Origin: Coptis chinensis
Lineage: Eukaryota; Streptophyta; Magnoliopsida; Ranunculales; Ranunculaceae
Assembly: GCA_015680905.1 (NCBI GenBank)
Contig: CM027382.1
Span: forward strand, 1,116,001-1,180,000
Length of the DNA: 64,000 bases
Reading direction: 5' to 3'
The notes under the pieces are model-generated. The model was not told where the DNA came from. It made no database searches and saw only the letters and a list, made by a program, of their open reading frames with translations. The translations under genes and the position numbers were made by a program. Position 1 is the stretch's first letter; the number at the start of each line of letters is the position of its first letter. Of this stretch, positions 10,140 to 44,500 are shown in pieces.

Positions 10140-11160
10140 GCCACCAACATACGCGAACAATACGTTCTCAGTGAGCAATACGCTTTCTTAAGCTGCTATG
10201 CTCTCCGTGAGCAACACGCTTTCATAAGCAAACGCGCTCTTAGTGAGCAATACGCTTTCTTAAGCTACTACGCTCTCCATGAGCAACACGCTTTCATAAA
10301 TCAACGCGCTCTCAGTGAGCAATACGCTTTTTTCTTACGCTCTCCGCGGAACAACACGCTCTCCAACGTAAAAGCAACACGCTTTCATAAGCCCCATGAA
10401 GCGCTTTCTCGGTGAGTAACAAGCTTTCTTAAGCTACTACGCTCTCTGTGAGCAACACGCTTTCATAAGCCAATACACTCCCAGTGAGCAACAAGCTTTC
10501 TTAAGCTACTACGCTCTCCGTGAGCAACACGCTTTCATAAGCCAACACGCTCCCAGCGAGCACCAATCTTTCTTAAGTTAACACGCTCTCCGCGAGCACC
10601 AAACTTTCTTAAGCTAACACGCTCCCAGCGAGCACCCATCTTTCTTAAGCTAACACGCTCTCCGCGAGCACCAAGCTTTCTTAAGCTAACACGCTCCCAG
10701 CGAGCACCAAGCTTTCTTAAGCTAACACGCTCTCAGCGAGCACCTAGCTTTCTTAAGCTAACACGCTCTCAGCAAGCAACACGCTTTCTTAAGCTACCAC
10801 GCTCACTCGAGCTCATAGGCTTCTTAGCCTCTACAGTTCTTACTAGTTGACGACCTACACCTCTAGGCTCAACTCAGCGAGAACGCTCTCTGCGAGCAAC
10901 ACGCTTTCTTAAGCTACCACACTCACTTGAGTTCATAGGCTTCTTAGCCTCTATATTTCTTACTAGTTGACGACCTACAACTCTAGGCTCAACTCAGCGA
11001 AAATGCTCTCCATGAGCAACATGCTTTCTTAAGCTACCACACTCACTCAAGCTCCTAGGCTTCTTAGCCTCTACAGTTCTTACTAGTTAATGACCTACAA
11101 CTCTAGGCTCAACTCAGCGAGAACGCTCTTCGCGAGCAACACATTTTCCTAAGCTAACAC
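10140..11160. repeat. Minisatellite in the 3' region of the gypsy fossil
   Basis: From about 10140 to 10800, a unit of about 36 bp built on GCTCTC(C/A)GYGAGCAMCAMGC and TTTCTTAAGCTA repeats many times, with two alternating variants that give a dimer of about 72 bp. From 10801 to 11160, a 120-bp unit (containing TAGGCTTCTTAGCCTCTA and GACCTACAACTCTAGGCTCA) is repeated: the shared landmark AAGCTACCAC ends at 10800, 10920 and 11040, and a diverged form ends at 11160. The 120-bp unit itself contains one short-unit motif, so it is a higher-order form. Such arrays in the 3' untranslated part are known for Tat-lineage elements and can seed satellites. Confidence 0.9.
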
Positions 11161-11446
11161 ACTCACTTGAGCTCAAGGGCTACATAGCCCACCACTTCTC
11201 ACTAGGTGAGGACCTATGCTTCTAAGATAAGCTCAGTGTAGAACGCTTACTAAAGCATCCGGCTCACTCAAGCTCCAAGGCTCCCTCGAGCTACAACTTT
11301 CTTACTAATTGAGAGCCTACACTTCTAGGATCTCACTTGCATCTTCAACTTGCATATTCAGTCACTATTCCACGTGCTTCCCACGTGTGGAATTACTCTC
11401 TCATCAGGTCGCCCCACAGAATTGGAATGACCTAATGAGAGGGGGC

Positions 11447-12070
11447 TGTGTGAGGGACTAATATACACAACCAATGTATATTATACATGTGTCCAACGTA
11501 AATAGAAATAACACACCGACCTCATGTCTTCGTCCTCCGAGCTCGCTTCATAAGCGACTCACCTCATATAGGTGATCTACTTCGGCTCATACTACGAGCA
11601 ACGACACCATCGCCCGATCTAAGATATTCGTCCTACGAGCTCGCTCCAGGGTGACACAGGTCCAACGGACGAGCTCACGCAGGACGCTTCATCTCATGAC
11701 ATCATCCCTTGTCCAGATGCAATCATTACCAGAGATATGCTTACACATCCCATCACCGCAATATACGAACCACTGCAACCACTCCCTATCATTATGGGAT
11801 TCCTACCAACACCAACCCTACACGCATCTCTAATCTCAGTCACATATCTGTACCCGTCGGTACACGTGTTGCGCAGATCTACATGCTCAACAATTATAAA
11901 TACCCCCAGACCCCCTACATGAACTACGTCAAACCTGATTCTTCTCTCCCCCCAGAATCGAGAGATAGATACGTAGGCAGTTTGCTTAACAACGAACTCG
12001 GTCTTTCCAATATTCAACCCCTTCTCCTCCTAATCTTGTATGTAAAGGAAAACTAAAACGCTCATTTACA
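11447..12070 (+). repeat. 3' LTR of the Tat-type gypsy fossil (unit A)
   Basis: A polypurine tract (ATGAGAGGGGG, about 11435-11445) is followed by TGTGTGAGGGACTAATATAC, the LTR start. The LTR ends near CTCATTTACA at 12070, giving about 624 bp. A TATA-like box, TATAAATA, lies at 11895. Related copies lie at 32697-33312 and about 52110-52742 as parts of units B and C. The exact ends are inferred from TG...CA and the polypurine tract, because no 5' LTR is present for comparison. Confidence 0.7.
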
Positions 12071-12672
12071 ATTATTATTAATACGGTCTAAGAATCCAAT
12101 TTGTTAATTTTATATATTTTTAATTTTTTATGGGTGGAGAACCAATATTTTTTCTCTCTTAGTTTGAAATTAGTCATTTCGGTCGAAATTGGTCATTTCG
12201 GTGAGAAAACTTAAAAATCATTAAAAAAAAATTGGTTTAAATTCGGTAATTAAATCGGATTGGTGAGAAAATTTTAAAATCATTAAAAAATAATTGGTTT
12301 CCACCAAACGGTACGGGCGATCACCGAGATGACCGATATTGAATATCATAATAAATTGCACATCAGGCCTACGTATAAGATGCTTCGTTATTTTGTATGT
12401 ACAATTACAATCTCACTTACCAAAACGTTTAGCACCCTCTGCAATTTGATGTAAAATTTACAAACTTTCGGCTACCAAAACTTGAGGCGACCACTTAACA
12501 CTTAAGGATGTCAATATGGCCCACAAGCCCACCGCCCGAGTGGCACATGAGCCAAGAAAGCCTTAAAAACTACCCACGGCCACAGTTTATTCGGTTGGTA
12601 AACTGTAAAAGCAAACAGAAAGTGAGTGGCAAGAAGCTAGGAATGAAGTGAGTTTAATCCTCAAAAGTCAAA
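12071..12672 (+). promoter_or_regulatory. Upstream region of PIF1 copy A, with Site II-type motifs
   Basis: This is non-coding DNA between the gypsy LTR and the PIF1 start codon. GGCCCA at 12518 and AGCCCA at 12526 form a pair of TGGGCY motifs on the minus strand (Site II elements). Such pairs are known from promoters of plant replication genes and nuclear genes for mitochondrial proteins, which fits a mitochondrial-type PIF1. Compared with unit B, this copy carries several short extra blocks at about 12150-12240 and 12385-12505. Promoter function is inferred from motif and position only. Confidence 0.45.
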
Positions 12673-14087
12673 ATGCTAAGACATGCTTCAAAAATCTTTA
12701 CTTTCCTTCACTTCAAACCCACCACCTCATTGTTTCGAACCTACTGCACCAATAAGAACACCACAGGTTACACACAACACTTAACAAGTCAACAGCAAGA
12801 AGCACTGAATGCAATATCAAATAAAAAGTCAGTTTTCATCACTGGGTCAGCAGGAACAGGTAAAACTTTCTTGGTTTCAATAGCTATAGACATTTTAAAG
12901 AATGATGTATACAAACCTGGTGAAGTGTTTGTTACTGCATCAACTGGTATTGCTGCTTGCGCTTTATATGGACAAACTTTACATTCATTTGCTGGTATAG
13001 GACTTGGGGTTGGTCATAAACATGATTTACTTGAAATGGTTGTTAGGAATTCTGATGCTTTTGAAAGATGGAAAAGTGTTAGAGCTTTAGTTATTGATGA
13101 TATAAGTATGATAAGTGGTGATCTTTTTGATAAACTTGACTACATTGCTAGAACTTTGAAGGGTCGTGTCCATAAACCTTGGGGTGGTATTCAGTTGATT
13201 GTTAGTGGTGATTTTTTCAACTTCCACCTATTATGGACGACCAATACCCCTTTGATAGGGAATTTGCTTTTGATGCTAAATGTTGGAATGCTACTTTTTA
13301 TTTGCAACTTGAACTTACTGCAATATTTCGACAATCGGAGCGGGAGTTTATAGATTTGCTTCAAGGGGTAAGGAGAGGGAGATTGAATGAAGAACATTTA
13401 AGAATTCTTCAACAATATTGCTGTAAAGAACCGGTGGATTCATCGGTGACTGTGCCATGTCTTTATCCGTTGAATAGGGATGTCAAGATAGTGAATGATG
13501 CTAGGTTAAGAAGTTTGAATGGGAAAATTTTGAAGTATACAGCAAGGGATACTGGAAAGAAGGCAAAGAACCTTTGGAAGTGGGAACACAGTAGGGGGAT
13601 CGCACCTAAGAAGTTGGAGTTAGGTATTGGTGCTAGGGTGATGTTGATTAAGAACATGGATGTGGGTGTTGGCCTCATGAAAGGTGCGACTGGTACCATT
13701 GTGGATTTCGTTGAGCAAACTGGAAAGAAGTCTCGGGGAGTATTTGCTAAATGTCTGTTGCCCAAGGTTCGATTTGACTCAGGATTGGTGCATATGATTG
13801 GGCCTGAAGAATGGCATGTTATGGAGGGAGAAAAAGTGCTTGCAACTCGAAAGCAGATTCCTCTTATACTGGCATGGGCTATTAGCGTTCACAAGTGCCA
13901 AGGAATGACTCTTGATTGCCTTCATACTGATCTTTCAAAAGCCTTCGATTATGGTATGGTTTATGTTGCTCTTTCTAGAGTTAGAAACTTACGAGGCCTT
14001 TATTTATCTGGTTTTGATTCCTCAAAGATCAAGGCGCACCCAAAAGTTTTGGTGTTCTACAACAATCAGTTTGGTTCAAAGCAGTAG
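12673..14087 (+). pseudogene. PIF1: PIF1-family DNA helicase, frameshifted copy (unit A)
   Basis: This is the same gene as the intact copy at 33843-35258, and I see no base difference in the coding sequence except one. A run of T residues at about 13212-13217 is one base shorter, which shifts the frame right after the VSGDF motif. The first part (12673 to about 13215) keeps the presequence, Walker A (GSAGTGKT) and Walker B. The second part (about 13216-14087) keeps the rest in another frame. With no other change, the frameshift is either very recent or a homopolymer sequencing error. Upstream and downstream sequence also matches unit B closely, up to the Helitron edge at 15380. Confidence 0.85.
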
Positions 14088-14894
14088 CAATTAGTAGTTG
14101 CCTATTCTTGTTATTATGAATTTATATTAGTGCATTTCTCCAATTTAAGTTTAAGCCTGATTGTTTGAAACAAAAATTTTCTCATCACAGCTTGAAAATG
14201 CACTATATCCATGGTTGAAACCTGTCATTCCAATTTTGGGTATTGTGTTTGATAGTGGTCAACAATTGGCATTTGATCAAGATGTCTCTTTTACTAATGT
14301 CCTAAGCTGCTCTCTTTGCGGCAACCATGATCCTTTTGTTTAATTATGGGTATGAGTGTTTTTATTTGTGTAATAATGGAACGAGTGTATTAACACTTTG
14401 AATGTGAACCTATTATACCACGTTGCATGTTCGGATCCGTGGATCAGGGTCTATTTGTTGGTAGATCTACCAATGTAATATCTTGTTTCGTGCTAGATTA
14501 CCAGTTTCTGGAAGAACACGTGCAAGGTATAAATTGTGTAATAAACTTTATATTTCTCCTTCAGATCAAGCAACACTAGTAGGATTCTTAGCAATCCCAT
14601 TATTGCATAAGCAATTAAGAAAAAATTTCAGATGATATTAATTAGTTGGCGTGTATAGGAAACCAGGCATTGAGTAGTAAGTTCATACTTCTATTACTCT
14701 CTAGCTAGTAAGGCGAGGTAAATAGTGTATCATCGTCCAAGAGCCATCATATGGACTTTGTGGAAGGAGACAAATGTTGTGATCTTTGCCTCTTAAGTTG
14801 GTTTTCTTTTTGAGTTACCTCCCCGTACATGCCACCTCAACCTGGGCATCTTAAACTCAGAATAGCTGCCAGTTATAAAATCAAAGCAAATGGT
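14088..14894 (+). other. 3' flank of PIF1 with a possible non-coding exon
   Basis: After the PIF1 stop codon there is a good acceptor-like tract (TTTCTCATCACAG at about 14177-14190), followed by an open stretch that ends at about 14343. It could be a 3' UTR intron or an alternative last exon, or chance. The remainder up to 14894 shows nothing I can name. Unit B has the same sequence at 35259-36065. Confidence 0.3.
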
Positions 14895-15317
14895 TTGGCT
14901 TAGGCTATGTTTTAAGGGATCACAATGGTATTTTTATTGCTGCAGGAACCGGTAAAGGCAGGGTCTGTTGGAGGCAGAATGCCAAGGAACTCTTAAAGGA
15001 CTCAAGTGGAGCAGGAACTTCAGCTCCTCAGTTGAAGTAGAGGTCGATGTGAAAGAAGTCAGCAACTTTTTGGGAAGAAAAGCATCAAATATATCATGGA
15101 CTTCAAGGAATATACTAGAAGATGCACGGCTAGATTTTGGCCTTTTTTACTTTATTTGTATTAAGTGGATCAGTAGATCTGCAAACCGTGTGTAGCACAT
15201 AAGCTTAGCCTCTAATGGCCACAATCTACCCCCACGTTCTGAGTGGCTTACACTGCCGCTTTGTTGGTTGATGGACGTCTTGGAGGAAGATAGAACTCAT
15301 GTAAATATAGTCTGTTG
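14895..15317 (+). pseudogene. RNase H-like (RVT_3 type) gene fragment
   Basis: This reads as an RNase H-like domain of the plant RVT_3 family. The start is YVLRDHNGIFIAAGTGK (14904-14955), then AEAECQGTLKGLKWSRN and VEVDVKEVSNFLG, then the conserved ending CIKWISRSANRV, followed by a tail (LASNGHNLPPRSEWLTL) typical of the family C-terminus. The halves lie in different frames, with a shift near 14960 and a stop near 15193, so it is not functional. Such domains occur both at the end of plant LINE ORF2 and in stand-alone genes. No RT domain is next to it, so its origin is open. It ends 62 bp before the Helitron terminus. Confidence 0.65.
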
Positions 15318-15379
15318 ATTATCAAAAAAAAACAATCTCCTTGTACATGCAAGGATGTTCAATGTATATTCTTTGTTTA

Positions 15380-15406
15380 CTAGGGTATGCCCGTGCCGTA
15401 CGGCAC
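15380..15406 (-). other. Helitron 3' terminus with hairpin (unit A)
   Basis: On the minus strand the end reads hairpin GTGCCGTACGGCAC, spacer GGGCATACC, then CTAG. A GC-rich hairpin about 10 nt before CTRR is the defining Helitron 3' signal. In unit B the same site lies at 36552-36578 with one base changed in the palindrome (GTGCCGTACGTCAC). Unit C lacks this end. Confidence 0.85.
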
Positions 15407-18400
15407 TGATAGAGTCGCCTGCGACGCTAACTTTGAAGAAATAGCCTAAACTTGAACACACCCCCCTCTCCCGTTTTGATTCTATTATCGCGGCTATTGT
15501 TCCATTTATGGTCAAGAATGATTATTAGGTTGAGAGCTTCGACATCACACTAACTTGAACCACCTAAGGGGTAATTTGGATAGAACCTCCCCATTATTTT
15601 TATGACTTTCCAATGTTTTGGATCATGTTAAAAGGCTGCAAAGACAATTCTCATTCAATAAATCCGGTAGTGATTTGCCAGATGTTCTAGACTCATTCAT
15701 CTAAATGGACTTAAACATAGAAGAACACCAATTAAACCAAATGAAATAAGAACAATATGAGAAACATATAAATAATCAGACTCCCACAAGTGGTTTGAAT
15801 GAGGACATCAAAACAGTACCAAAAGAGCACCCACAAAAGTCGCCAAGTACAAAAAAAAAGTAGCGAAAGTCTGGATAACATTGTTGACAATCATAACTCT
15901 TCCGAAACCCCATCCTCATTCGCCAATGTCAAGGTCATTATCATAAATCCCAAGCCTTAAGGAAACTTCATCGAAGAAGTATGTAATTATCTATTTTAAA
16001 TTAAGTTAAATAGAGTGAGTAGGAAATACTATATATAATGAAGGGAAGAAGAAATTGACAATTTAGAAGTGAAACAATGAGCGATTGTATTCACCTATAG
16101 ACTCTTTTAAGTTTTGGAACAAGCAAATATGTAGCCCCAAAACTCAAACAATTACAAACCTATGACGTGGTTTTATAGTAAAATTTTGGCAAACATCTCC
16201 TCTCGTATTTTTGACATTTCATAAATATAAACCTGTCATAACCTGAAAATCACAATCATATATTTCTCATTGGTTAATCCGGTTACTTAACCGTCTCGAC
16301 GGATAATGAGGCGATCAAATAATTGGCTTACAAAAATGAGAGCACTTCAACATTATGACTTATGCGCCAAAGTATTTGAATGTCCCGACTAATGCGGATC
16401 ATCAAAGCACCTCGTACAAAGTCATTACCCGAAAAAACACAAGTAAAATACATACATTCGAGTCCCATAACTATCAAAAGGTCTACACACCCTTAACAAA
16501 TGATATTTACAATGTATACATATACCATATTTCCTAAAGTTTCCATTGGGGTAGTTCCATAAACGACTTTTCGTAACAACACTAATAAATGAAAGAACAA
16601 ACAATAGCCACCGAAATGCTACCTGCACTAAAATACCTATAAAAGCGTGAGAACCAAATCAAAGCTCAAATCAATCAAAACTAATACTTTTCGACAAACC
16701 CAAAACCAAAAATAGAACCCTTAATAAATAAGCAAATAAATACCTATAACAACACGGAAGAAGCTCGGACTAAACCTTTACATAGAAGAAAACAAATAAT
16801 TCATCTCGGCTAAAGCGATTTTAAAAAGAATGAATCTTTACATGGAAAATCAAAGAGATTGAGTTATAAGAGAAGAGATGTTACTGTTTCACTTGACTTG
16901 AGAATCAACAGAGATCACTAAGTTATAGTGATTGGCCAAGGTCCCATCACCACGTTCACGGATGAAAAAATTAAACAACACAATAAGTAGAGAAAGACCG
17001 AGGGAAGGAAAAATGAAAAATGAAAAGGAAAATACACGAGAATCATCAGAGATCACTAAGTTTGAAGATATGAGAATTGAAATTTCCTCGTTCAGCCTAA
17101 ATACCATATAAAACAGACGTCACCATTTAGTAGGAATTGAAATAGATTTGTATAGAACTATATATTCAGGTGTTGTAAGATCAAAAAGAAGAAATTATGG
17201 GAAAAAAAACTAACCAAGGTTCGCAAAAAAGTTCTTCAACTTAATGCGACAAAATGTAATTACACACCAATTCGCAAAACCTACATAATTTGAGCGAAGC
17301 AAATTAACCAAGTAAGAGCAAATACAAATGTATCAATTTGATGACTATAAATTCAATGAGTAACTACTCAACACGTGACTATAAATGAAAAGAACTTTAC
17401 GGATTATAGTAAGACTTACGGGTAAACAAAGTTTGGGGTGTGACTTTCGAATTTGGAGGGAGGAGAATCTTGATTAAATGCGAAGAAGTGCACCTTGATA
17501 GTCGCGACATATAATTGACCGTGGCTGAAAACTTGGTCGCGAAGGTCAATCCCCACATACTTCACCGATTGTCCTTGTGACTTATTTATAGTCATTGCAT
17601 AAGCAACACGCCGCGAAGCTGTCATCCATCTCATATGAAAAGGAAAATCGAGAAGGCAGCGGTGACAAAGATATTCTTGGAATAAATGCATGATTGCCGC
17701 TTTTTCACCGATCAAAATTCTTTACGAAAGAAGCGTGAGGTCGACGGTGGACCACCATCAATCGGGTTCCATTGCATAATCCATCTTTGGGAGCAATATT
17801 TCGCAACAACATTATAGGACAACCAACTTTTAGGTTGAGGCGAAGCGGTGGTAGACCAATTTGGATCAAGTGAGTTTAGGTACTCATTTGGGTATTGATT
17901 AATATTGGTTTGGATTCGTTTGCATCCTCGTCGCCGGCTTGTTTTGCAGCTAGAAAGAGAGTACTTTCCCACAGGAACATATTTAAAGTCTTTGCATTAA
18001 TATCATTGACATCATCATTGCGTCGCGAGATAGAATTGTGCTTCAGTTAAATATTCGGTGTAACTGTGGTAGGTTGATTTAGGCGAGGATATGTAGTAGA
18101 AATGAGATCCACGAAGATTTGCACATCGATGAATTGTTGATGGTAGTTCAACTTTGTCGCTTGCTTAGGTCACTTCCTATCTAATTAAACAGAAAATAGT
18201 AATGAATATTAGTACGAATAAAAATAGTACAAAGAATGATGTAAATGAATATCAATATTAAGCAAAATAGTACAAAGAAAAATACACAGTTTGGTACCTC
18301 CATTAAGAAATTTGCGAACGCAATATTTGCAGAGTTTCCATTTTCCAATCGCATGTTTTGGGCAAGAGTTAGAACATGAATGTGACTCCAGAGGAAGGAA

Positions 18401-21400
18401 GACCGCAAGGAAGCACGCACAATCTGTTCTCGAACCCCTTTGGGTATAACTGGAAGGCATTGACGGAAGTCACCACCAAGTACAACTGTTAATCCACCAA
18501 AAGGTTTATTATTGTCGCGAGTATCCCGAAGTGTGCGATCAACTGCCTCCACACAAAACTTATTTTGCATTGGGACTTCATCCCAAATAATAAGTTTAGC
18601 TTCCTGAATAATTAGGCATGCATTGAATTCTTACTAAACCCACAAACAGAGGTATCAAGAATATCTAGTGGGATGAAAAGGTCGAGCGAAAGCGAGACGA
18701 CCGCCAACCAATAGTAATGAAGCTATTCGGATGAAGCGACCATAATAACAATATGCCCCCTCAAAGACGACCGTAGCGGCGATTGTGTTGTAAACAAAAA
18801 GTTTTGCATTCCTGCCGCTCCATTCAAAAGAAGAGTTTCCCTAGATTTTGGGAAACATAATCTATCATTGTTTGATATGAAAAGCGTTGCTCTGCATTTA
18901 GGAGAACCCATTTGCCATGTGCTTTTGCATTTTGAGGATCAAACTGAAATTGTCGCTGGTCCCATATGAGTCGGGTTTGCAACAACTAAGTTCCATCTTG
19001 TAGTTACAGAGGCAGTGGCATTAGAGGGAAATTAGCCGATTGATTTACGACTCTATCAAAATCTCATTTAAGAGAAATAAACCATAATCTTGCACTTCAA
19101 ATAGGGTAGGTTCGGAATGTTGAACATTGTGCGAAACTTATGTGGAAGGTCATCACATATATTTTCCCAAAAATCATTCCACAATGTTTGGGGTTGCAAA
19201 GGATTGCACTCTGCGAGAATAACACAAAATAGTCGGCGAAGATGATATCGGTCGCATGGTGAAGCTTCTGTAGACATTGCACCCATTTGTCATCTTCTAG
19301 AAGTCCACGTGCAACACATGCATCTTTAAAAGTTGGAAGGGAGGACCATTACCAATCCTTTTCGGATCATCAAATGATTGAGGTCCTTTTACAACGGTTA
19401 GAAGTAAGCGTAGGTAAAATCGCTCACCGGAATTAGGACTGGCGAAATACATTCTACCAATAGCAAATTTTCCCTCTCGTATCCTTCTTGTCCAAGTCTG
19501 AGATTGTTTGTTCCAGACATAGTATTCGGGGAACTCTTGATAAGTGAGGCTTCTTGCTCTTAAATCTGATGCACAACAATCAAAGAAGGCAATCAAAGTT
19601 GACTTTTGGTGCTCCGCCCTTGATAGTATATCATGTATTGGTTCATCAGCTTTATAAACTACGCGGTGCATTCCAGGGAGATGAAGCGCCAAGCGCACAA
19701 CTGTGGGAATCTCCTCATGTAGATGGAAACTTAATAATCTCCAAACTGCTTCCGGTGGGCCAATGTATCTCACATCCAAGTATTGTTGGATCTCATCCAA
19801 CTCATTCAACACTATTGTTGTCATGTCATGCCCTTTAAATATATACTTATGAATGTATTTAACACAACGGATCCCAGCACAAACTTCGACATTAATATGG
19901 CAGTTGAACATCTTAGAAAGATAAGGATTATAAGGAACAACATCCCTGTTATCAACTGTATGCCCCCTCACAATATATGATCTACCGTTGTCACGACGAC
20001 GGTAGATAGGATATCCATCTTTATCCATGGTGGTAGCATCTGCAAAAGTCCGGGGATAGTGATGCTTGCATCTACCATTTACCATGCACGGAGAGTTAGG
20101 ATTATTTAGTCCACATGGACCATGAACCATACATGTGAGGGACGGTGCGAAATAACTTCGGGTTCGGTTTTCGGATCGGGAAACTCTGCACATACAATGC
20201 GATAACCTTGAGGTAGGTATACGGATCTTGTCGAATGTCGAAGATATATAAGTGCATGCATATGGGGCAACCAGCGTTTTACGGAACTCAATGGGTAGAC
20301 ATGTGCAACGGCAGCAGTACCAAGCACACCTTTCTTTTTAATTTCCTTCATCAAGGCCCCCGGCTTTAGTTCAAAGACACGGCCCACGACCTCTGGTCGA
20401 TGAGTTGCGATTTGGTACTCGGACAATGCCACGAACAACTTCGTCCTAGAAGCGGATTTGCAGTCATTTGAGAAATATATCAGGATGCTTATTGTAGCGT
20501 GTGATGGCCATTGAATCTTGAAAAATTTGAACATGTGCCTAGGGCTGCCGACACAAGATCTTTGGTAAGACCACTTTCGTCTTCCAATCTGTTTCATCGA
20601 AAGCTTCAAACCGCAACATCGATGATACCTTGATAAAGTTCAGCCCGAAGCTTGTCTTGTTGTAACCTATAATATCTCATTTTGTTACGTTGATCCACGC
20701 CCATCCATCCACCAAAACTCTTGAAATAGTTTGTGCCCGCGTAAGATTGCAGAATATTCTCCAGGGCGTTCAAATATCCGATAAGAGTAGAAATCCATCT
20801 GTGTCAATCGGTCATTAGTATTTGAACGCCTCATATCAGGTGACCACCCAAGCTCTCCGTAAGGAAACATTAGCACATAATGCAAAGGCAAGTAAGCTGG
20901 ATGACATTCACTGATCTGCATGAATTCTTGCCCTCCTTTAAGATATATCACAATATCCCTCATATTATTACGCTCGCTGCCATCCCCAGGTAAAATGACA
21001 GCAATCTCATCTGCGGTTGGCAAGTTGTAACGACGTCTGTCTCTAGTAGCACTGTAATGCAAATAAGCAGGTACATTGAAGTTCTCACCATGTTGAAGAG
21101 AGGCAGATCTAAGAACATCGTATGCATGGCGAAAAGTAGCAGAGAAACAATTATACTGGAGCATAGTTGCATGAATTATCTTCAGAACATCTGTGTTCAA
21201 ATGGGGATTACGAAGTTGACGTATATCCAATGCAGCACTGGGATCATATATGTAAAGTTGAGAGTAAGTTGGCTGCCGCCCAGTGTCAGGAATTAGAGAT
21301 CCAGTTCTATGGCCTTGGCCCGACCATGTATAGTAAAAGGCCTTGGACCTCGTCCAGTAAAGACACGCTCATTTCCTCCAAGGCTTGTAAATGCGAAAGC

Positions 21401-21865
21401 TTGGTTGTATTGTCTCATGTACTTCCGAAATGACTTTGAGTTGCGATCATTTCCATCATATAAAGCTTTAAGGGCTGGAGGTAATGGCCGTAGTGGAGGC
21501 AATTTGACTTTCCCTTGCAAACAACAAGTCCCGAATCGAGGACGTGATAATGATGAATCTTTTAGTCGTTCATCCATCCAATGGAGTGCACTACAAAATG
21601 GACACTGAACATCCATTCTCCCCAATGAGTGTCTTCCTTGTTCAATCAGATGGTTAGAAACAATATTGTCAACTTCGTCTTCATCATCACTTATGTCAGC
21701 ATTATTAGCATAAATTGGACGGTCAAAACCATTATTGTGAACCTCCTCACAATATTGTGCAGGATCCCCAAATGGTTGTTGTCTACAAGAGAAATAATTG
21801 TATATATTTAGACAAAGGTGCCATTTTTTTGTTATTCCAATTTTAATAAGTGTGAAGAAGTATAC

Positions 21866-22149
21866 CGCGAATTTCGGTTAGTTGATGATGATGCAGAAGC
21901 TGCATTTGTCGAATGTGATATTGGATGGACAAAAGATGAGGTAGAAGACCTGCAGTTACGCGTACTGCGAAGAAACTTGTGATGTTAGGTAGGATCTTAT
22001 GGTAACCAAACCACAAAGAACCAAGAGAAAGATGTAATAAACCACGTACTAACCTTGCATTTTGGTGAGACGGTGTTGGTACAAAGTTCTCATTGGTTGA
22101 ATGTGGAATTGCATGAGGTAAGGATGAGGAAGCAGAAGAGATACATGTA
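21866..22149 (-). other. Helitron exons E5 and E6, a second duplicated exon pair
   Basis: E5 (22054-22149, 32 codons) and E6 (21866-21964, 33 codons) are both phase 2-2 and sit side by side. Both encode Ser-rich peptides with the same core: SSLPHAIPHSTN in E5 and SSFVHPISHSTN in E6, each preceded by a Thr and SSxSS-like residues and ending N-x-R at the splice. The same lengths are seen in unit C (56968-57063 and 56775-56873). Equal phase and a shared motif indicate duplication of one exon. Confidence 0.7.
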
Positions 22150-23050
22150 CTACAATGAAACTTGCACAAGTGAGTTATATATAGATTTTGATTAAGGAAA
22201 ACTACTAAGTGAAGTACTCACGTGTTGTTTTGAGCCGATGAATCAGCATGGGTACTTGATGTGACACGTTCTTCGGGGAGCGTAAATAGCCTTATGGGAT
22301 TAAGGAATGATAAAGATTTCCGAAGAGACTCTGAAGAAGAAAGACGTCGGTATGGTGTTGCATGAGGTGTAACTGGACTATTATGTGTTTGATGCTTGTC
22401 AGCTTGAAGTGGAGTTTGTGGAAGTGAATGAGAACCATTCAATGTTGAACCTTGTGCACCTTGGATGGTGAAGTTTGTCTTGCCAATTAGTTTAGTGCTC
22501 CTCTCTCTTCCCTTCGAGAGCGCTTATTTATCCTAGTATTCTATTTGTTATCTGCACCTAATTATAACTATAATCAACCGAATAGATTGGGAGAAAGAGG
22601 AATGCATGGATAATAGCAAAGATGGCAATTAGTATTAAAATTAGAAAACACGAAATGTAAAGATATGAAGAAAGTAGTGAAAGGTAATAAGTGATCGAAG
22701 ACTCAAAGGCAAATTATAAATGAATAGATGGATGACCACATGCAACACAATTGGTGGGTAAATATTATACATATAAGCAGGCATTAAATTGCAGTGAATT
22801 TACTACAATTATAGTATACAAAAACACCTTTTGGACAATGCATGAGCAATTATAGCATTACATTTTAATTAAAGCTCATCTTACATGAGAACCGGATGGC
22901 GGGAGATGAGATAGAGAAACACTATCTGATGGGCGCTGCACATTTATAAAGCAAAAGAAGAAATAAGACAATGCAATATACATAAGCAACAGTGTAGAAA
23001 AATAAATAAGGCAATGCAACTTAGCATAAGACAATGCAAGCAAGAAATAC

Positions 23051-23184
23051 CTGGAAGCCAAGAGGCGGTTGAAGATTGAGCCTATCTTGGGGGGCAACAA
23101 AGACATGTTTATTTTGGTTTGAAGGTTCCTTAAAGGAGTCTATAGAGGCGTTTTCCTTTGTCAAGAATTGGTTTGCGTAGGAAG
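23051..23184 (-). other. Helitron exon E2, paralogous to exon E1
   Basis: It encodes PILDKGKRPIDSFKEP...VFVAPQDRLNLQPPLGF between acceptor TATTTATAG and donor GTATTTC, in phase 0-0. In unit C the exon is exactly 132 bp (57923-58054), the same length as E1. Unit A shows two extra bases. Shared pattern with E1: P-I-(L)-DKGKRP-x-D-x2-K-x-P ... V-x-V-x-QD-x-L-x-LQPP. I know of no named domain with this motif. Confidence 0.75.
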
Positions 23185-23309
23185 CTATAAATATTTGAAA
23201 GAGAGTTCAAAAACATGATGTGAAACCAATAAGAGTGTTAATATAATTTGGGTAACTCAAAGTATGTTAATAGAAGTTATCAATAACATTATATTGTTGA
23301 TTGTAATAC

Positions 23310-23441
23310 CTCGAGCGAAAGGTGTCGTTGAGGAGTAGGTGGCTGAAGGTAGAGTCCATCTTAAACTGGAACATAATTATTGTTTTTCTTGCAAGGGTCC
23401 TTATAAGGGTCCATTGGACGTTTACCCTTATCTATGGGATC
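23310..23441 (-). other. Helitron exon E1, paralogous to exon E2
   Basis: A 132-bp (44-codon) exon of phase 0-0, between acceptor TTTCTACAG and donor GTATTAC. It encodes PIDKGKRPMDPYKDP...YVPVQDGLYLQPPTP. In unit A the Q codon before DG reads as a stop (TAA). Units B and C read CAA. The next exon, 23051-23184, encodes a related 44-residue block, showing an in-frame exon duplication. Confidence 0.75.
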
Positions 23442-24845
23442 CTGTAGAAACAAATAGAAATAGCTAGATACTCAATAAAATCTGTAGAAACAAACATAAA
23501 AAGGATGGGTAGGGATAACATACCATTGAGAGGAAAATCTGCAACAAAAAATGGTGCCTAAAAAAAAGACAAAGCAGCAGTGATTATGTACTTGATCAGC
23601 TTAATCAAAACCTAAAGGTAACTTAAAAACACACTAAATCAGTAAATTGATTAGTACATGTTCTATCCGGAACAATCATAGATAAACGAAAAGAATTTTC
23701 TTGTTCATAACCATCATCTCTTATATTGCAATCGAATAGTGTTAACACCTATGTCTCCACCATGAGACACCCCCCCAAGGAGTAGAGTGGAATTACTGTG
23801 GCCCCTATCCAAACCCACGGTCCACATTCCTCCACAGGGGTAAACTTCTTAACTTATATAGAGCAGTAGCACACTGGACTCCACCGGTTGTAAGCTCAAT
23901 TAATGTAGACTAGTTGGCACTTGGGCTTAAGCCTAGCAAATTTTTCAGGAAAAAGTCCATCAACATCCCATGTAAGTTACTTGCTTCATCATAGCGACCC
24001 ATGGGGAATCATCAAGCTTTCTCTCACGCTTTTAAATTTCAACTGTCACATCGCTTCTGGTGGAAAATTTTCCCTCCATAAGAAAGAAAGAGTTTTACTT
24101 AGATTAATTGAGTGACATCTAACCCCCTATATTTTAAAACAATAGAATTAACACATTTAAAATACGACTAAATTGAGTACTAAAAACATATAACTACACA
24201 CGGGACACTATTCAGGGTGTCATCTGCTCTTATTTTGCTTTTCTCCAACTCAAAGTTTCATTTTTTTTTTAACCAAAGACAAAAAAAATACATTTCAAAC
24301 TTTAGGAGAACTAACATAAATGTTGACCGTTTAAAGGTTCTAAAAGGTTTCCTTGCTTACCTTCCAACTCTAGCTCCTATGCGCCCATGAGACTTTTTGA
24401 AGAACCGGTGAGTATAATGAGCTGAAGTCCCAAACTACAAAGGGTTGAACAGGTTTGATAAAACAAAATAAATTAGGAAAACAAAATAATCACACATTAC
24501 GTTAAAGAATATTTTCTGAATAATTATTAGTTGGAAGTCCACTCTGTAAGGGATACATACATATTTAACATTGCCTTTAACATTTCAGCATACACATAGT
24601 AGAACTTTGATTACTATACTCAAAAGTCAATCCAATCTTCAAGCTAGACAAAAAATCACTGCCATTTGTTCGAGTTTAAAAGAAGGTGGACCCCAAAGAA
24701 GAGCATGTGGAAGACAATCCAATATCCTCATGTATTTTTTAAGGACAGAAGTTTCTCTAAAAATCTTGGTGATTTTTGAATCTTGTACAAGTCAACATTG
24801 TAAGTGGGAAGAGCCTAAAAGCCGAAAGGACCACATATCAAGGAC

Positions 24846-25062
24846 CAAAATATCGATATCGGTTAATATATCGGTGTACCCAAAAACCGATATATATCTA
24901 TTTTTTTTGTGACCAGTCCAAACCAAGGCCCAAAATATCGATATCGATAAATATATCGGTGTACCCAAAAACCGATATATATCGGATATATCCATTTTCA
25001 AGCTATAAACAATGTATTGATAGCTATAAACAATTCTCATAACTATAAACAATGTATTGATA
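24846..25062. repeat. ATCGAT-rich palindromic direct repeats inside the Helitron
   Basis: A block reading AATATCGATATCGRTWAATATATCGGTGTACCC and then AAAAACCGATATATAT occurs twice, starting at about 24846 and 24930. Each block contains internal palindromes (ATCGAT, and CGATATATATCG in the second). Next to it, CTATAAACAATGTATTGAT is repeated. The same array is present in unit B (about 46525-46742) and unit C (about 59717-59930). It encodes nothing credible. Confidence 0.8.
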
Positions 25063-25365
25063 CACATGCTTCTAAGGGAAACCTACATCCCCCTAAAACC
25101 AAATCTTAAAAACAACACTTTCTTTTTAGCGAAACATTGACTGGAGTTAACATTATCCTCAAGCAGGAATAAACTTACAGGTTATGGTCGAGAAACGGTA
25201 TTTCAAGATCCCGTAGCTTTGTAGAGTTCACAAAGCTCCGGTCATCTACATTTATAATATTTGCTGAATAATAGAGGAACAATTATACATTCAGTCTTCT
25301 GCAAGAGGCGTCCAGAACACATGAACTGAACCGCTCCTTCAAAGAACAAACAATAGCCAGACCTC

Positions 25366-25505
25366 ATTTTATTAGTGTACATAAAGAGGCATACATATAA
25401 TATTTGCTTTATTAGTGTACATAAAGCATTGTACATAAAGAATGAATGAATGAAAACTGAAGTCAGAATGAATGAAAACTGAAGTTAGAATGAATGAAAA
25501 CTAAT
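25366..25505. repeat. Short tandem repeats (GAATGAATGAAAACTGAAG)
   Basis: A unit of about 24 bp with GAATGAATGAAAACTGAAGT is repeated about three times, preceded by two copies of ATTAGTGTACATAAAG. Related blocks with CATTGTACATAAAGAATGAA recur at 26195-26275, so this end of the Helitron contains dispersed copies of one short motif. Confidence 0.75.
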
Positions 25506-26059
25506 TAAGAACTTAAGATACAAAGAGGACATATTGCTCCATTATTTTAGACATATTAAGAAGTTAATATGACTGTATTGTTTCTTTATTGGTAGGGTGC
25601 TCTTTTATGTATCTTTGATCTTTCTATGTGGTTCAGGCCGTAATGTAACCTAGGTATAGATGAATGCATTCGTAAATTTACAAGCCTGAAAATGGACGTA
25701 ATTTCAACTTAATTTCAGAGTGGCACCTATATGTCTAAAATCTCAACCCCGCCTTCATAATTAAAATACTAATTAAACCACAACAGTAATCATACAAAAA
25801 CTGAATAAACAAGCGAACCAAGGGAACATAAAATAATTTTATATTATCTATGAAGTAGATGCGAGATACTGCAAAATATTTACTGTCAAAATCCATTTTA
25901 TTAACCAATATTTACCCAAATTCTGATTTTGAAGTCATTTTCACTATACACCATCTTGGTTGAGCAAAAAAGAGTACCATGCAAACACAACACCATCGAT
26001 TTGTCGTAGTACTTCAACTTGTCCAACCTTTAATTAAGTTTGTTTCTTTCCCGCTTTTC

Positions 26060-26335
26060 CATAACACAAAATAACAAAAGATTGATTAAGAATGAAAACT
26101 GAAGTCAGACCTCATTTAATGCAGGCTTAAATTCATATAATGAGGCAATCAATCTTTTGTTAACCGCCTCCTTCAATCATTCGAGGAGATGAACAAAAGC
26201 ATTGTACATAAAGAATGAATCAAATAAAAACCGAAGTCGAATGAATGAACAAAAGCATTGTACATAAATAACAAAAGATTGATTAATAAATTAAAAGAAT
26301 GAAAACTAAAGTCAGACCTCATTTACTCGCGGCTT
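26060..26335. repeat. Duplicated block near the Helitron 5' end
   Basis: The block AATAACAAAAGATTGATTAA followed by GAATGAAAACT(G/A)AAGTCAGACCTC occurs at about 26072 and about 26268, about 0.2 kb apart, with intervening copies of GCATTGTACATAAA. The same arrangement is seen in units B and C (about 47750-48010 and 60920-61170). Confidence 0.7.
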
Positions 26336-26640
26336 CAAGCTTCGTCATTTACCTGTGTTGGTTGTGGAAATGAAACAAGGCAATTCTTTCTCTAGAGTGA
26401 CGGCGCCAGGAAGGAAGGATAGGGCATACATAGTTTGTTTGAAGAATAAGATCCAATAGATCCCAGTGTTAGGGCATAAGGGAGCATACTCTTTGGGATT
26501 GGCTTATTTTGCCATGTCACAACTTAGAAAAGACAATGGTAACCACTGGATGGAGGCCCTGTGGGCCCCATACCATTGTGTTTTATTAGATAGATAATGC
26601 TTATGTAGGGACTGTTTGTAATGTTTATATTGGTCTGTAT

Positions 26641-30137: not shown

Positions 30138-32377
30138 TGATAAGCACCCAAAAGTGTATTATGAAACCCCATTGACACATATAAATTTGGTTAATTATGT
30201 GTTTAATAATCATGAAATAAATATATTTTCATACTTTTGCAGGTATTTGCAGTAAACATGGAAATATTGGTTAAACCGCAATAAAGCACGAGGAACGGCA
30301 GATATATGAATTCTCCCAAATCCGCACGAAGCATCAAACTTCCAAAGCTCCTACCTCTCGAACCCGGGACTCGAATGCGACAAGAGAGTCGCTCGGACAA
30401 TCGTATGATGAACTACGCGATAGGCGGGAAGTTGTAAAAGCGCCAAAATACCGGACCGCCCATGGATCGCATTACATGAGCCCACTACGGGGCCACAAGA
30501 TTGGATGAGTCATCAATCATGGAGCATGTCAAGACAAAAATAACAAATTATTGGTGCAAAGTTGACACCTTGCATGTAATAAATTAGATTATGTGTTAAT
30601 AGTGAAAAAAAGGCAAGGTGTCACTTTGCTTTAATATGGTGGATAAAAATGAATTAATGTGGTTTGATGATTCACGTGGGAGGAAATGAGATTTCTCTCA
30701 AAAGGAGAAGAAATTAGACAAGGGTGGGGGACACTCCATTTACTCCCTTGACTTATTTTCCTCACATGACATTATTTTAGTTCCTTAGTGAAAAAAATCA
30801 TAAGTTAGCTTTTAGTTTTTGTAAGAAGCTTGTAATAGTTTTAATGGAGGAAACACTTGTTTTCTTCTAGAAAATAAATATATCAGTGAGTTTGATTGTT
30901 TATCTTCTTCTTTTCTCTATCTCTCTTTTGTTTTTTTTTAGTTTATAAATCCTTGTCCCAAGGATCATGAGTTAACTTCCCTTTTGGGGAGTTAATCCAA
31001 CTCATGTGAGGGTAAATCAATTTTTGTTGGTTTGGTAGGTTGTTAGGAAGAACAACTAGCTCTACACCCTATCCCAAAATGATAGTTGGTGTAGTGTCTA
31101 GTTAGGAATCAAAGCAATGAGCTTAGAGATAAGTCATTGCTTAGTTTCACTTGCTAGCATGTGTGAGCTCTTAAGTGAGCCATACATGCTAGGGATCAAA
31201 TCTTTTCTTCCATTAGGGGCTTGTCTATGAGTCTAGGAAGGATCAAATAACCTTTTTCAAATCAACAACTAATGATAGTTTCACATGAGGAGGATTAACT
31301 CTCCACCTTTTCTTTCAAATCTGTATTTTGGTATTAAGTGCATGTTTTCAAACTTTAATGTCTTTCTTAATGTTTGTGTAGGAAGGAAAACCTAGCATCA
31401 ATATTATAACCTTACTCCTTAGTTCCCTTTATTGTAACATCCAATTTGTAGTTGTTCTAAACTTTAGGTTAGTTCGAATCCTTATTCCAACTCTACGAAA
31501 CGAAGATCGTGAGTAAGGAACTTTGAGTGCTTTTGCATCAATTTAGAGAGTTCAAACCTCTAAGTAGTAGTAAACAAGCATATATCAAATGGCGCCGCTG
31601 CTGTTCTAAAGCAATAGAACTTGGGCTACAGATCGAAAGTTGCATCAAGGGGGAACCCCCATTCTCTTCCTTCCTTTCCTTTTCGTTCGTTTACGTTTTT
31701 TTTTTGTTCAAATTCGTATTTTTACCTCGCAATAGACCTGTTCGCTCACAAATTTTTCGTTCCACTTCCAGGTACCAAAAGTTAGGACTGGGAAACATCA
31801 CTGCAGGCGATTATAAGAGTGCTGTAAAAAGTTGAAATCATTCTGAATTAAGCCGACACGTGCGGCGGCGATGTCGAAGTCGCGACGCCTTGTGCCTAAA
31901 TATCCGCCCTACATGACTGAAAAATTCGATAATCCTTTGGGATTAATCGCGTCGACAATTGAAACGTTTGTTTTCAAAGGGCTAAAAAGCGGGAAGCTTC
32001 TGAGTTCCAAATTTTCAATATTATTGTAATTTTTTTATGTTTTTCTGCATGTATGCCATGTATATAGTATTAGGAAAAATTTATGGATTATTATTTACGT
32101 ATTAGCCTAGAATTATGTATGAATCATGTGAATACTTTGTGAATATATATATGCGCGTTAAGCGGTCATGAATTACATATTAATGTATATATACATACAA
32201 ATGGAACTGTTTTGCATGGTTATCTATATATCTATATCTAAGTCACATGTTCAAAGATATATATTACCGAATGAGTGATTATTTGCATGTTAGCATCTAT
32301 AACTTAGGAGTTATACATAGTAATTAGGATGTGTTTTGGTATTTTGGCCATAACTTTGGCTCACGGTTCTCTGAATC
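30138..32377 (+). mobile_element. Athila-type gypsy fossil: 5' LTR and leader (unit A)
   Basis: An LTR of about 1.45 kb starts TGATAAGCACCCAAAAGTG and ends near 31587. It is followed at 31590 by TGGCGCCGCTGC, a primer binding site of the type used by Athila elements. About 0.8 kb of leader follows, ending at the segmental-duplication junction. No gag or pol is present in the window, so only the 5' end of the element was included in the duplicated segment. The family call rests on LTR length and primer binding site and is moderate. Confidence 0.6.
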
Positions 32378-38572: not shown

Positions 38573-41500
38573 TTACGGATTATAGTAAGACTTCTGGGTA
38601 AACAAAGTTTGGGGTGTGACTTTCCGAATTTGGAGGGAGGAGAATAATCGATTAAATGTCGAAGAAGTGCACCTTGATAGTGCGACATATAATTGACCGT
38701 GGCTGAAAACTTCAGTGCGAAGGTCAATCCCCACATACTTCACCGATTGTCCTTGTGACTTATTTATAGTCATTGCATAAGCAACACGCACAGGAAACTG
38801 TCTTCTTGTCATATGAAAAGGAAAATCGAAGAAAAAGGCAGCGGTGACAAAGATATTCTTGGAATAAATGCATGATTGCCCGCTTTTCACTAGTCAAAAT
38901 TCTTTAAAAGAACGTGGAGGTCGACAATGGACCACCATCAATCGGGTTCCATTGCATAATCCATCTTTGGGAGCAATATTTTGCAACAACATTATAGGAC
39001 AACCAACTTTTAGGTTGAGCTAAACGGTGGTAGACCATTTGGATCAAGTGAGTTTAGGTACTCATTTGGGTATTGATTAATATTGGCTGGATTCGTTGCA
39101 TCCTCGTCTGCGGCAATCTTGTTATGCGCAGACTAGAAAGAGAGTACTTTCCCAGGAACATATTTAAAGCTTCTTTGCATTAATATCATTGACATCATCA
39201 TTGCGTGCAGATAGAATTTGTGCTTCGGTTAAATATTCGGTGTAACCGTGGTAGGTTGATTTTAATGAGGATATGTAGTAGAAATGAGATCCTCGAAGAT
39301 TTGCACATCGATGAATTGTTGATGGTAGTTCAACTGCCTCGGCAGGTCACTTCCTATCTAATTAACCAGAAAATAGTAATGAATATTAGTACGAATAAAA
39401 ATAGTACAAAGAATGATGTAAATGAATATCAATATTAAGCAAAATAGTACAAAAAAAAAAAATACACAGTTTGGTACCTCCATTAAGAAATTTGCGATAA
39501 CAATAATATTTGCAGAGTTTCCATTTTCCAATCGCATGTTTTGGGCAAGAGTTAGAACATGAATGTGACTCCAGAGGAAGGAAGACCGCAAGGAAGCACG
39601 CACAATCTGTTCTCGAACCCCTTTGGGTATAACTGGAAGGCATTGACGGAAGTCACCACCAAGTACAACTGTTAATCCACCAAAAGGTTTATTATTGTCG
39701 CGAGTATCCCGGTCGCGATCAATCGCCTCCACACAAAACTTATTTTGCATTGGGACTTCATCCCAAATAATAAGTTTAGCTTCCCTGAATAATTCGGCAT
39801 GCATTGAATTCTTACTAAACCCACAAACAGAGGTATCAAGAATATCTAGTGGGATGCGAAAGGTCGAGTGAGCAGTACGACCGCCAACCAATAGTAATGA
39901 AGCTATTCCAGATGAAGCGACCATAATAACAATATGCCCCTCAGCACGACACGTAGCAGCGATTGTGTTGTAAACAAAAGTTTTGCCTGTTCCTGCTGCT
40001 CCATTCAAAAAGAAGAGTTTCCCTAGATTTTGGGAAACAGAATCTATCACTGTTTGATATGAAAAGCGTTGCTCTACATTTAGGAGAACCCTGTTGCCAT
40101 GTGCTTTTGCATTTTGAGGATCAAACTGAAATTGTCGCTGGTCCCATATGAGTCGGTTTGCAACAACTAAGTTCCATCTTGTAGTTAATGTGAGGCAGCG
40201 GCATTAGAGGGAAATTAGCCGCTGATTTACCCGACTCTATCAAAATCTCATTTAAGAGAAATAAACCATAATCTTGCACTTCGGGGGGTAGGTTACGGAA
40301 TGTTGAACATTGTGCTGCATGAAGCTTATGTGGAAGGTCATCACATATATTTTCCCAAAAATCATTCCACAATGTTTGGGGTTGCAAAGGATTGCACTCT
40401 GCGAGAATAACACAAAATAGTCGGCGAAGATGATATCGGTCTGCATGATGAAGCTTCCCTAGACATTGCACCCATTCATTTGTTATCTTCTAGAAGTCCC
40501 GTGCAACACATGCATCTTTAAAAGTTGGAAGGGGAGGACCATTACCAATCCTTTTCAGATCATCAAATGATTGAGGTCCTTTTACAACGGTTAGAAGTAA
40601 ACGAGGTAAAATCGCTCACCGAATTAGGGATCGGCAAAATACATTCTACCAATAGCAAATTTTCCTCTCAGATCCTTCTTGTCCAAGTCGAGATTGTTTG
40701 TTCGGACATAGTATTCGGGAACTCTTGATAAGTGAGGCTTCTTGCTCTTAAATCGATGCACAACAATCAAAGAAGGCGATCAAAGTTGACTTTTGGTGCT
40801 CCGCCCTTGATAGTATATCATGTATTGGTTCATCGACTTTATAAACTACGCGGTGCATTCCAGTGGAGATGAAGCCAAAGCGCATTAACCGTGGGAATCT
40901 CCTCATGTAGATGTAAACTTAATAATCTCCAAACTGCTTCGGTGGGCCAATGTATCTCGCAGATCCAAGTATTGTTGGATCTCATCCAACTCATTCAACA
41001 CTATTGTTGTCATGTCATGCCCTTTAAATATATACTTGTGAATGTATTTAACACAACGGATCCCAGCACAAACTTCGACATTAATATGGCAGTTGAACAT
41101 CTTAGAAAGATAAGGATTATAAGGAACAACATCCCTGTTATCAACTGTATGCCCCCTCACAATATATGATCTACCGTTGTCACGACGACGGTAGATAGGA
41201 TATCCATCTTTATCCATGGTGGTAGCATCTGCAAAAGTCCGGGGATAGTGATGCTTGCATCTACCATTTACCATGCACGGAGAGTTAGGATTATTTAGTC
41301 CACATGGACCATGAACCATACATGTGAGGACGGTCCGAAATAACTCAGGTTCGGTTTCTGGATCAGGAAACTCTGCACATACAATGCGATCAACTTGAGC
41401 AGGTATACGGATCTTGTCAGAATGTCGAAGATATATAAGTGCATGCATATGGGGCAACCCGCGTTTCTGGAACTCAATGGTGTAGACATGTGCAACGGCA

Positions 41501-44500
41501 GTACCAAGCACACCTTTCTTTTTAATTTCCTTCATCAAGGCCCTTCGCTTTAGTTCAAAGACACGGGCCACGACCTCTGGTCGATGAGTTGCAGTTTGGT
41601 GCTCAGACAATGCCTCAACAACTTCGTCCTAGTGCGGATTTGCAGTCATTGTGAGAAATATATCAGGATGCTTATTGTAACGTGTGATGGCCATTGAATC
41701 CTGAAAAATTTCGAACATGTGCCTAGGGCTGCCGACACAAGATGCTGGTAAGACCACTCGTCTTCCAATCTGGTTTAATCGAAAAGCTTCAAACCGCAAC
41801 ATCAGTGATACCTTGATAAAGTTCAGCCCGAAGCTTGTCTTGTTGTAACCTATAATATCTCATTTTGTTCTGTTCAGCCACGCCCATCCATCCACCAAAA
41901 ACTCTTGAAACAATTTGTGCCCGCGTAAGATTGCAGAATATTCTCCAGGGCGTTCAAATATCCGATAAGAGTAGAAATCCATCTGTGTCAATCGGTCATT
42001 AGTATTTGAACGCCTCATATCAGGTGACCACCCAAGCTCTCCGTAAGGAAACATTAGCACATAATGCAAAGGCAAGTAAGCTGGATGATATTCACTGATC
42101 TGCATGAATTCTTGCCCTCCTTTAAGATATATCACAATATCCCTCATATTATTACGCCATTTGCCATCCCTGTAAAATGACAAGCAATCTCATCCGGTTG
42201 GCAAGTTGTAACGACGTCTGTCTCTAGTAGCAATCAGAATGCAAATAAAGGTACATTGAAGTTCTCACCATGTTGAAAGAGGCAGATCTAAGAAGAACAT
42301 CGTATGCATGGCGAAAAAGTAGCAGAGAAACAATTATACTGGAGCATAGTTGCATGAATTATCTTCAGAACATCTGTGTTCAAATGGGGATTACGAAGTT
42401 GACGTATATCCAATGCAGCACTGGGATCATATATGTAAAGTTGAGAGTAAGTTGGCTGCGCCCGATTGTCGGGAATTAGAGATCTAGTTCTATGGACGGC
42501 CCGACCATGTATAGTAAAAGGCCTTGGACCTCGCCCAAGAAAGACACAGCTCATTTCCTCCAAGGCTTGTAAATGCGAAAGCTTGGTTGTATTGTCTCAT
42601 GTACTTCCGAAATGACTTTGAGTTGCGATCATTTCCATCATATAAAGCTTTAAGGGCTGGAGGTAATGGCCGTAGTGGAGGCAATTTGACTTTCCCTTGC
42701 AAACAACAAGTCCCGAATCGAGGGCGGATAATGATGAATCTTTTAGTCGTTCATCCATCCAATGGAGTGCACTACAAAATGGACTGAACATCCATTCTCC
42801 CCAATGAGTGTCTTCCTTGTTCAATCAGATGGTTAGAAACAATATTGTCAACTTCGTCTTCATCATCACTTATGTCAGCATTATTAGCATAAATTGGACG
42901 GTCAAAACCATTATTGTGAACCTCCTCACAATATTGTGCAGGATCCCCAAATGGTTGTTGTCTACAAGAGAAATAATTGTATATATTTAGACAAAGGTGC
43001 CATTTTTTTGTTATTCCAATTTCAATAAGTGTGAAGAAGTATACCGCGAATTTCGGTTAGTTGATGATGATGCAGAAGTTGCATATATTTGTCGAATGTG
43101 ATATTGGATGGACAAAAGATGAGGTAGAAGACCTGCAGTTACGCGTACTGCGAAGAAACTTGTGATGTTAGGTAGGATCTTATGGTAACCAAACCACAAA
43201 GAACCAAGAGAAAGATGTAATAAACCACGTACTAACCTTGCATTTTGGTGAGACGGTGTTGGTACAAAGTTCTCATTGGTTGAATGTGGAATTGCATGAG
43301 GTAAGGATGAGGAAGCAGAAGAGATACATGTACTGCAATGAAACTTGCACAAGTGAGTTATATATAGATTTTGATTAAGGAAAACTACTAAGTGAAGTAC
43401 TCACGTGTTGTTTTGAGCCGATGAATCAGCATGGGTACTTGATGTGACACGTTCTTCGGGGAGCGTAAATAGCCTTACGGGATTAAGGAATGATAAAGAT
43501 TTCCGAAGAGACTCTGAAGAAGAAAGACGTCGATATGGTGTTGCATGAGGTGTAACTGGACTATTATGTGTTTGATGCTTGTCAGCTTGAAGTGGAGTTT
43601 GTGGAAGTGAATGAGAACCATTCAATGTTGAACCTTGTGCACCTTGGATGGTGAAGTTTGTGCTGCCAATTAGTTTAGTGCTCCTCCTCTCTTTCCTTCG
43701 AAAGCATTTGTCCTAGTATTCTATTTGTTATCTGCACCTAATTATAAGTATAATCAACCGAATAGATTGGGAGAAAGAGGAATGCATGGATAATAGCAAA
43801 GATGGCAATTAGTATTAAAATTAGAAAACACTCTAAAATGTAAAGATATGAAGAAAGTAGTGAAAGGTAATAAGTGATCAAGACTCAAAGGCAAATTATA
43901 AATGAATAGATGGATGACCACATGCAACACAATTGGTGGGTAAATATTATACATATAAGGGCATTAAATGGAAGTTATTAAATAGTAGTGAATTTACTAC
44001 AATTATAGTGTACAAAAACACCTTTTGGACAATGCATGAGCAATCATAGTATTATTTTAATTAAAGCTCATCTTACATGAGAACCGGATGGCGGGAGAAG
44101 TGTTTGAAGTGGAGTCTGTGGAAGTGAAGGAGAGCCATTCAATGTTGAACCCATTAGTTGGTGGTCAATGACATGACGTGTGACTACTTGTGCACCTTGG
44201 ATGGTGAAGTTTGAGTTGCCAATTAGTTTAGTGCTCCTTTCTCTTTCCCTTCGAGCATGTTATCCTAGCATTCTATTTGTTATCTGCACCTAATTATAAG
44301 TATAATCAACCGAATAGCAAATATGGCAGTTAGTATTAGTGGAATGTAAATATATGAATAAAGTAGTCAAGGATAATAAGTGATCGAAGACCCAAAAACA
44401 AAAGCAAATTATAAATGAATAGATGGATAACCACATGCAACACAGTTAGTGGGTAAATAGTATACATATAAGCAGGCATTAAATTGCAGTGAATTTACTA

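Follow-up and report, generated by a model that had tools for sequence, protein, structure and literature searches.

Differences between near-identical Helitron copies in Coptis chinensis cluster at CAG/CTG and are probably in large part base-calling errors

In bacteria, nanopore base-calling errors induced by methylation have been documented (Lohde et al. 2024, PMC11610573). In the sections of that paper drawn on here, the errors persist in the consensus at motifs linked to methylation, are reverse-complement symmetric and consist mostly of A/G and C/T confusion toward C or G. For native plant DNA, the part consulted of a second study gives a lower nanopore accuracy with general base-callers, with methylation suspected as the likely cause (Ferguson et al. 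2022, PMC9749173); a text search returned no occurrence of CHG, CAG or CTG in its main text. The passages considered of PMC7419231 and PMC9650304 do not describe a CAG/CTG signature, and no description of one in plants was found in one open-access library, judged by titles and the starts of abstracts.

The window analysed here, a 64-kb stretch of the Coptis chinensis assembly, contains a block in triplicate, with copies A, B and C starting at 11139, 32378 and 51793 respectively. Each copy carries a Helitron, or part of one, on the minus strand (Table 1). Helitrons are recognised by a 5' TC end, a 3' CTRR end, insertion between A and T and a hairpin close to the 3' end. All of these terminal features are present in the sequence of copy A. 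The hairpin at 15380 has the arms GTGCC/GGCAC, and the overall fold of the 61 bases is unremarkable (z -1.5; 16 of 200 shuffles were equally good). The coding features of a Helitron are also found, with a Rep (HUH) match (PF14214, 3e-20) and a PIF1-family helicase match (PF05970, 1.5e-72) in copy B, in addition to matches to the Helraiser transposase 7LCC (1.3e-68 and 2.6e-36 for the pieces of copy B). When viral contigs were scanned for a relative of the Rep piece, four pattern matches came up, and tblastn identified none of these as a relative.

Table 1. Coordinates of the features in the window
Feature	Position	Strand	Remarks
Left flank, divergence control	11139..12590		82 substitutions, 10 indels (1 of one base); mostly clean, taken as real divergence
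PIF1 gene and downstream flank	12600..15379	+	Nearly error-free control stretch; copy B equivalent 33770-36550
Helitron, copy A	15380..26594	-	CTAG end and hairpin at 15380; TC end at 26594; flanked by A and T
Copy A tract where CAG/CTG loss is greatest	15380..18230		31/50 of B's CAG/CTG altered in A
Three-copy Helitron part for polarised counts	18300..26594		22440-22920 omitted
Rep/helicase pieces, copy A	19297..21368	-	In frame with Helraiser 7LCC residues 218-441 and 629-898; phmmer 3.2e-14 and 1e-76
Stretch outside the Helitron with like differences	30915..32376		Compared with 50345-51792; CAG/CTG altered 10/16 and 9/15
Rep and PIF1-type helicase pieces, copy B	39358..41628	-	In frame with 7LCC residues 538-762 and 1032-1223
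Rep piece, copy C	54487..55140	-	In frame with 7LCC residues 611-822; phmmer 1.1e-57

A separate PIF1 gene is located at about 12.7-14.1 kb in copy A, and the open frame at 33828-35258 of copy B fits the Pfam profile PF05970 at 7.7e-41. This gene is a single open frame of 476 residues in B and lies in two pieces in A. A T-run inside it differs by one base (13211 in A, 34382 in B), possibly a homopolymer error in one of the copies. The part equal to about 12.6-18.2 kb of A is missing from copy C, which at 53158, where the left-flank repeat ends, passes directly to the equivalent of A 18235 and is without PIF1 and the 3' part of the Helitron; a deletion and an assembly join are the two readings. 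Within the same repeated block, the divergence between A and B is 6% over 11139-12600 (32378-33770 in B) and drops to about 0.1% near 12600, at what may be a recombination or conversion border, or the trace of a two-step duplication.

The original prediction described A and B as nearly identical from PIF1 to the Helitron terminus and densely different from there on, and the alignment agrees on both counts. The 2.78 kb of 12600-15379 contain three substitutions and five indels, compared with 133 substitutions and 43 indels in the 2.85 kb of 15380-18230 inside the Helitron, where 31 of the 43 indels are of one base. The four CAG/CTG examples that it quoted are all present (A/B positions 15903/37074, 16394/37570, 16754/37931 and 16767/37944). 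A Poisson change-point in the density of differences was placed at 15320, with support from 15255 to 15440, which fits the Helitron edge at 15380.

The words at which the copies differ were counted in a polarised manner, with the word found in two agreeing copies as the reference and a change scored in the third copy; the majority used as reference can itself be wrong. Since C is without the rest and one segment aligned poorly, these counts cover only 18300-22440 and 22920-26594 of A. CAG/CTG was the most altered of the 32 word classes, with 76 of 262 words changed, compared with 103 of 1321 words of the same composition (Fisher P 8e-19, which is approximate because words overlap and the copies are related) and 940 of 20998 for all words together. 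By copy, 23/85 were altered in A, 22/84 in B and 31/93 in C, and the polarised result was practically unchanged under three gap penalties. No consistent strand bias between CAG (12/39 in A, 5/32 in B and 16/43 in C) and CTG (11/46, 17/52 and 15/50) was found over the three copies. Words containing CG ranked next (117/825), which may reflect real decay, further miscalls or a miscalled majority.

The clustering of differences at CAG/CTG, which had been proposed from a few examples, is also borne out by position: of 365 clusters of differences in the parts of the Helitron that were aligned, 179 are at most two bases away from a CAG/CTG of at least one copy, whereas 2000 shifted controls average 68.3 and never exceed 92. 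Proximity to CCG/CGG is raised too (118/365 against a shifted mean of 47.2), and other GC words are above their shifted means (AGC/GCT, 110 against 55.4; GCA/TGC, 108 against 67.3; GAC/GTC, 87 against 64.5). Unpolarised word counts, which mix source and product words and in which CGC/GCG ranked above CAG/CTG in the Helitron, were replaced by the polarised ones. In the unpolarised counts, the pooled flanks (left flank and 30915-32376) have 29/77 CAG/CTG altered, similar to the Helitron (320/882); 19/31 are from 30915-32376 and 10/46 from the left flank, where control words are at 26/204.

The suggestion that the differences begin at the Helitron edge stands for the change-point, but the pattern is also found outside the element. 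It is strong at 30915-32376 and weaker to the right of 26594, where the proposed comparison of contexts inside and outside the Helitron gave 7/85 polarised CAG/CTG altered and 15 of 40 clusters near CAG/CTG, against 7.9 expected and a maximum of 17. The left edge of the Helitron is therefore one border of wider corrupted tracts. In the left flank, differences do not cluster at CAG/CTG (11 of 46 clusters against 8.7 expected). The three-copy count over 11400-12560 gave 9/36 CAG/CTG altered against 17/179 comparison words, so a CAG/CTG effect may exist there too.

Several neighbouring sequences were also characterised. Retrotransposon pieces lie at 8309-10013: an RNase H domain of the reverse-transcriptase-like type matches PF13456 (1.8e-18), and the match of an integrase piece to PF00665 (0.00069) falls short of the profile's cut-off. 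A tandem array of 36-base and 120-base units occupies 10158-11216; over 10150-12600, CAG/CTG is low (0.46 of matched words) and the CpG O/E is 1.01. The same value of 0.46 is found at 28640-30900, with a CpG O/E of 0.75. This stretch is present once in the window and possibly carries the same artefact as the Helitron. It includes an RNase H piece (28672-29163) that we take to be copia-like and that has no match in the Pfam profile search. Over 64 one-kb windows, the CAG ratio correlates weakly and nonspecifically with CpG (-0.35 for the ratio, -0.28 for O/E), and this was not taken as proof because the correlations of CCA/TGG (-0.43) and AGG/CCT (-0.50) are stronger.

The products of the changes and their distribution between copies point to the origin of the differences. 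Decay of 5-methylcytosine yields C-to-T changes and therefore accounts for a minority of the 76 polarised CAG/CTG changes: 17 are of the deamination type (TAG, CAA or TAA), 17 are CGG, 19 are indels and 23 are other substitutions. Deamination alone had been judged inadequate, and the 59 changes of other types uphold this view. Over 15380-18230, 31 of the 50 CAG/CTG words of B are altered in A, compared with five of the 24 words of A altered in B, and CG words number 88 in A and 66 in B; CAG/CTG was thus lost and CG gained in A and not in its twin. Additionally, two Helitron segments contain 43 and 21 loci at which the three copies give three different readings, where 20.4 and 10.7 would be expected and 1000 placements gave at most 31 and 20; the right flank has seven such loci, with 3.2 expected. 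These expectations assume uniform placement and ignore ordinary mutation hot spots.

With high confidence, the best explanation of the differences is that CHG-methylated cytosines were miscalled in nanopore reads of native DNA, that the near-identity of the repeats left these errors uncorrected and that they lie atop modest real divergence. Of this account, we infer the CHG methylation, the nanopore platform and the failed polishing. The sequence of the window most likely comes from native plant DNA assembled from long reads. Silenced transposon DNA would carry 5-methylcytosine on both strands in CAG/CTG, which is a CHG context, and a base-caller untrained for CHG methylation would misread the adjacent bases as CGG, CG, CGA or short indels. 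A misreading of this systematic kind would be retained in the consensus, and among near-identical copies short reads would have no unique placement and could not correct it. The PIF1 stretch of the same duplicated block, presumably without CHG methylation, would be read correctly. Modest real divergence, C-to-T changes included, would lie underneath. The raised changes of CG words, the left-flank count of 9/36, the unpolarised count of 29/77 in the pooled flanks, the weak and nonspecific correlation with CpG and the residual differences away from C and G count against the artefact. Among positions without C or G within two bases, those at which A differs from B number 7 of 453 over 15380-18230, a low figure that itself fits the artefact, and 2 of 373 over the PIF1 stretch; the excess over PIF1 means that some real divergence or another error is present. 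For other Helitron pairs the proportion reaches 17/662 (B and C, 22920-26594), and real divergence in the Helitron is therefore, on this measure, probably about 1.5-2.6% at most, above that of the PIF1 stretch.

Alternatively, the differences could be mostly real, with methylated cytosines deaminated and ordinary indels accumulated in old copies and the PIF1 stretch homogenised by gene conversion or duplicated later. The raised CpG words, the 17 deamination-type changes, some clean substitutions of A against B and C and the residual divergence away from C and G agree with this reading, and a layer of real divergence likely exists. As an account of most of the differences it is unlikely: most CAG/CTG changes are not of the deamination type, CG is gained in A rather than lost, and one-base indels make up 31 of 43 in 15380-18230 against one of ten in the left flank.

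Generic long-read consensus error, from low coverage, homopolymers or collapsed repeats and with methylation irrelevant, would explain the differences in homopolymer length, including those of the PIF1 stretch (13211/34382, 14172 and 14809). It does not account for the tenfold preference for CAG/CTG over AGC/GCA/GAC that is seen when overlapping contexts are cleared, that is, among words clear of CAG/CTG and CG neighbours (67/218 against 23/776). It also offers no reason for sparing the CAG/CTG of the PIF1 stretch, where 0/63 and 1/64 are altered, and we consider it very improbable.

An unusual mutation process turning CAG/CTG of CHG-methylated DNA into CGG, CG or short indels would suit the context specificity and the transposon edge, as would anything tied to CHG methylation, but it would have to strike one copy and spare its twin over 2.85 kb and yield many products at one word, and we know of no chemistry with this effect; it is the least credible explanation of all. 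The original prediction had left artefact and unusual mutation both open; the non-deamination products, the loss confined to A, the three-way loci and the frame-changing differences described below favour the base-calling artefact.

The reading frames bear on how much of the Helitron is damaged. An intact transposase frame is a mark of autonomous copies, and decayed members need none; among the open reading frames of A, B and C as assembled, no uninterrupted transposase frame is present, and the stretches in frame with 7LCC vary by copy (Table 1). B keeps to the 7LCC frame over two segments, and one of them matches a PIF1 profile as well. Within these segments, 15 of the 24 frame-changing differences of A and C coincide with a CAG/CTG of B, where 4.7 were expected and 5000 placements gave at most 12. 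Two further events were dropped because B itself is off the 7LCC frame there; with all events the count is 17/26. Frame-neutral differences in the same segments lie at a CAG/CTG of B in 13 of 33 cases, against 4.6 expected. Most of the examined breaks are thus at CAG/CTG, which suggests that the Helitron is probably less broken than the assembled sequence makes it appear, as had been anticipated in the event of error.

Many of the Helitron differences between the copies are probably not real features of the plant's DNA, and the apparent damage of the three copies would in large part be misreading. We tentatively propose, as a possibility worth entertaining rather than one to count on, that corrupted tracts form an unintended methylation map, in which CAG/CTG lost from one copy among several that are nearly identical would mark CHG-methylated DNA in a finished assembly, with its edge placed to about 200 bases. 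If this is true, published assemblies that were left unpolished could be searched for CHG-methylated repeats with no need of a methylation assay. Through such errors, young transposon copies would appear old and broken, divergence dates would be inflated, and CpG sites and frameshifts that do not exist would enter the sequence; intact genes in repeats could also be hidden. Comparing CAG/CTG changes with those of matched words across near-identical copies offers an easy check, for which the assembly alone is sufficient.

Compared with Helraiser 7LCC, a solved Helitron transposase, the locus is similar in that its pieces of Rep and of PIF1-type helicase can be aligned in frame and the TC and CTAG ends are present; it differs in that none of the three copies, as assembled, spans the transposase with one unbroken frame. 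The locus resembles the plant study (PMC9749173), in the part of it used here, in concerning plant DNA and base-callers trained on other genomes, whereas the accuracy reported there is at the level of reads. The commonest product here, CAG to CGG, is like the bacterial nanopore errors (PMC11610573); in the portion of that work considered, those involve two bases per position, in contrast to this plant locus, where the words are CHG, short indels are numerous and a site can have more than two products.
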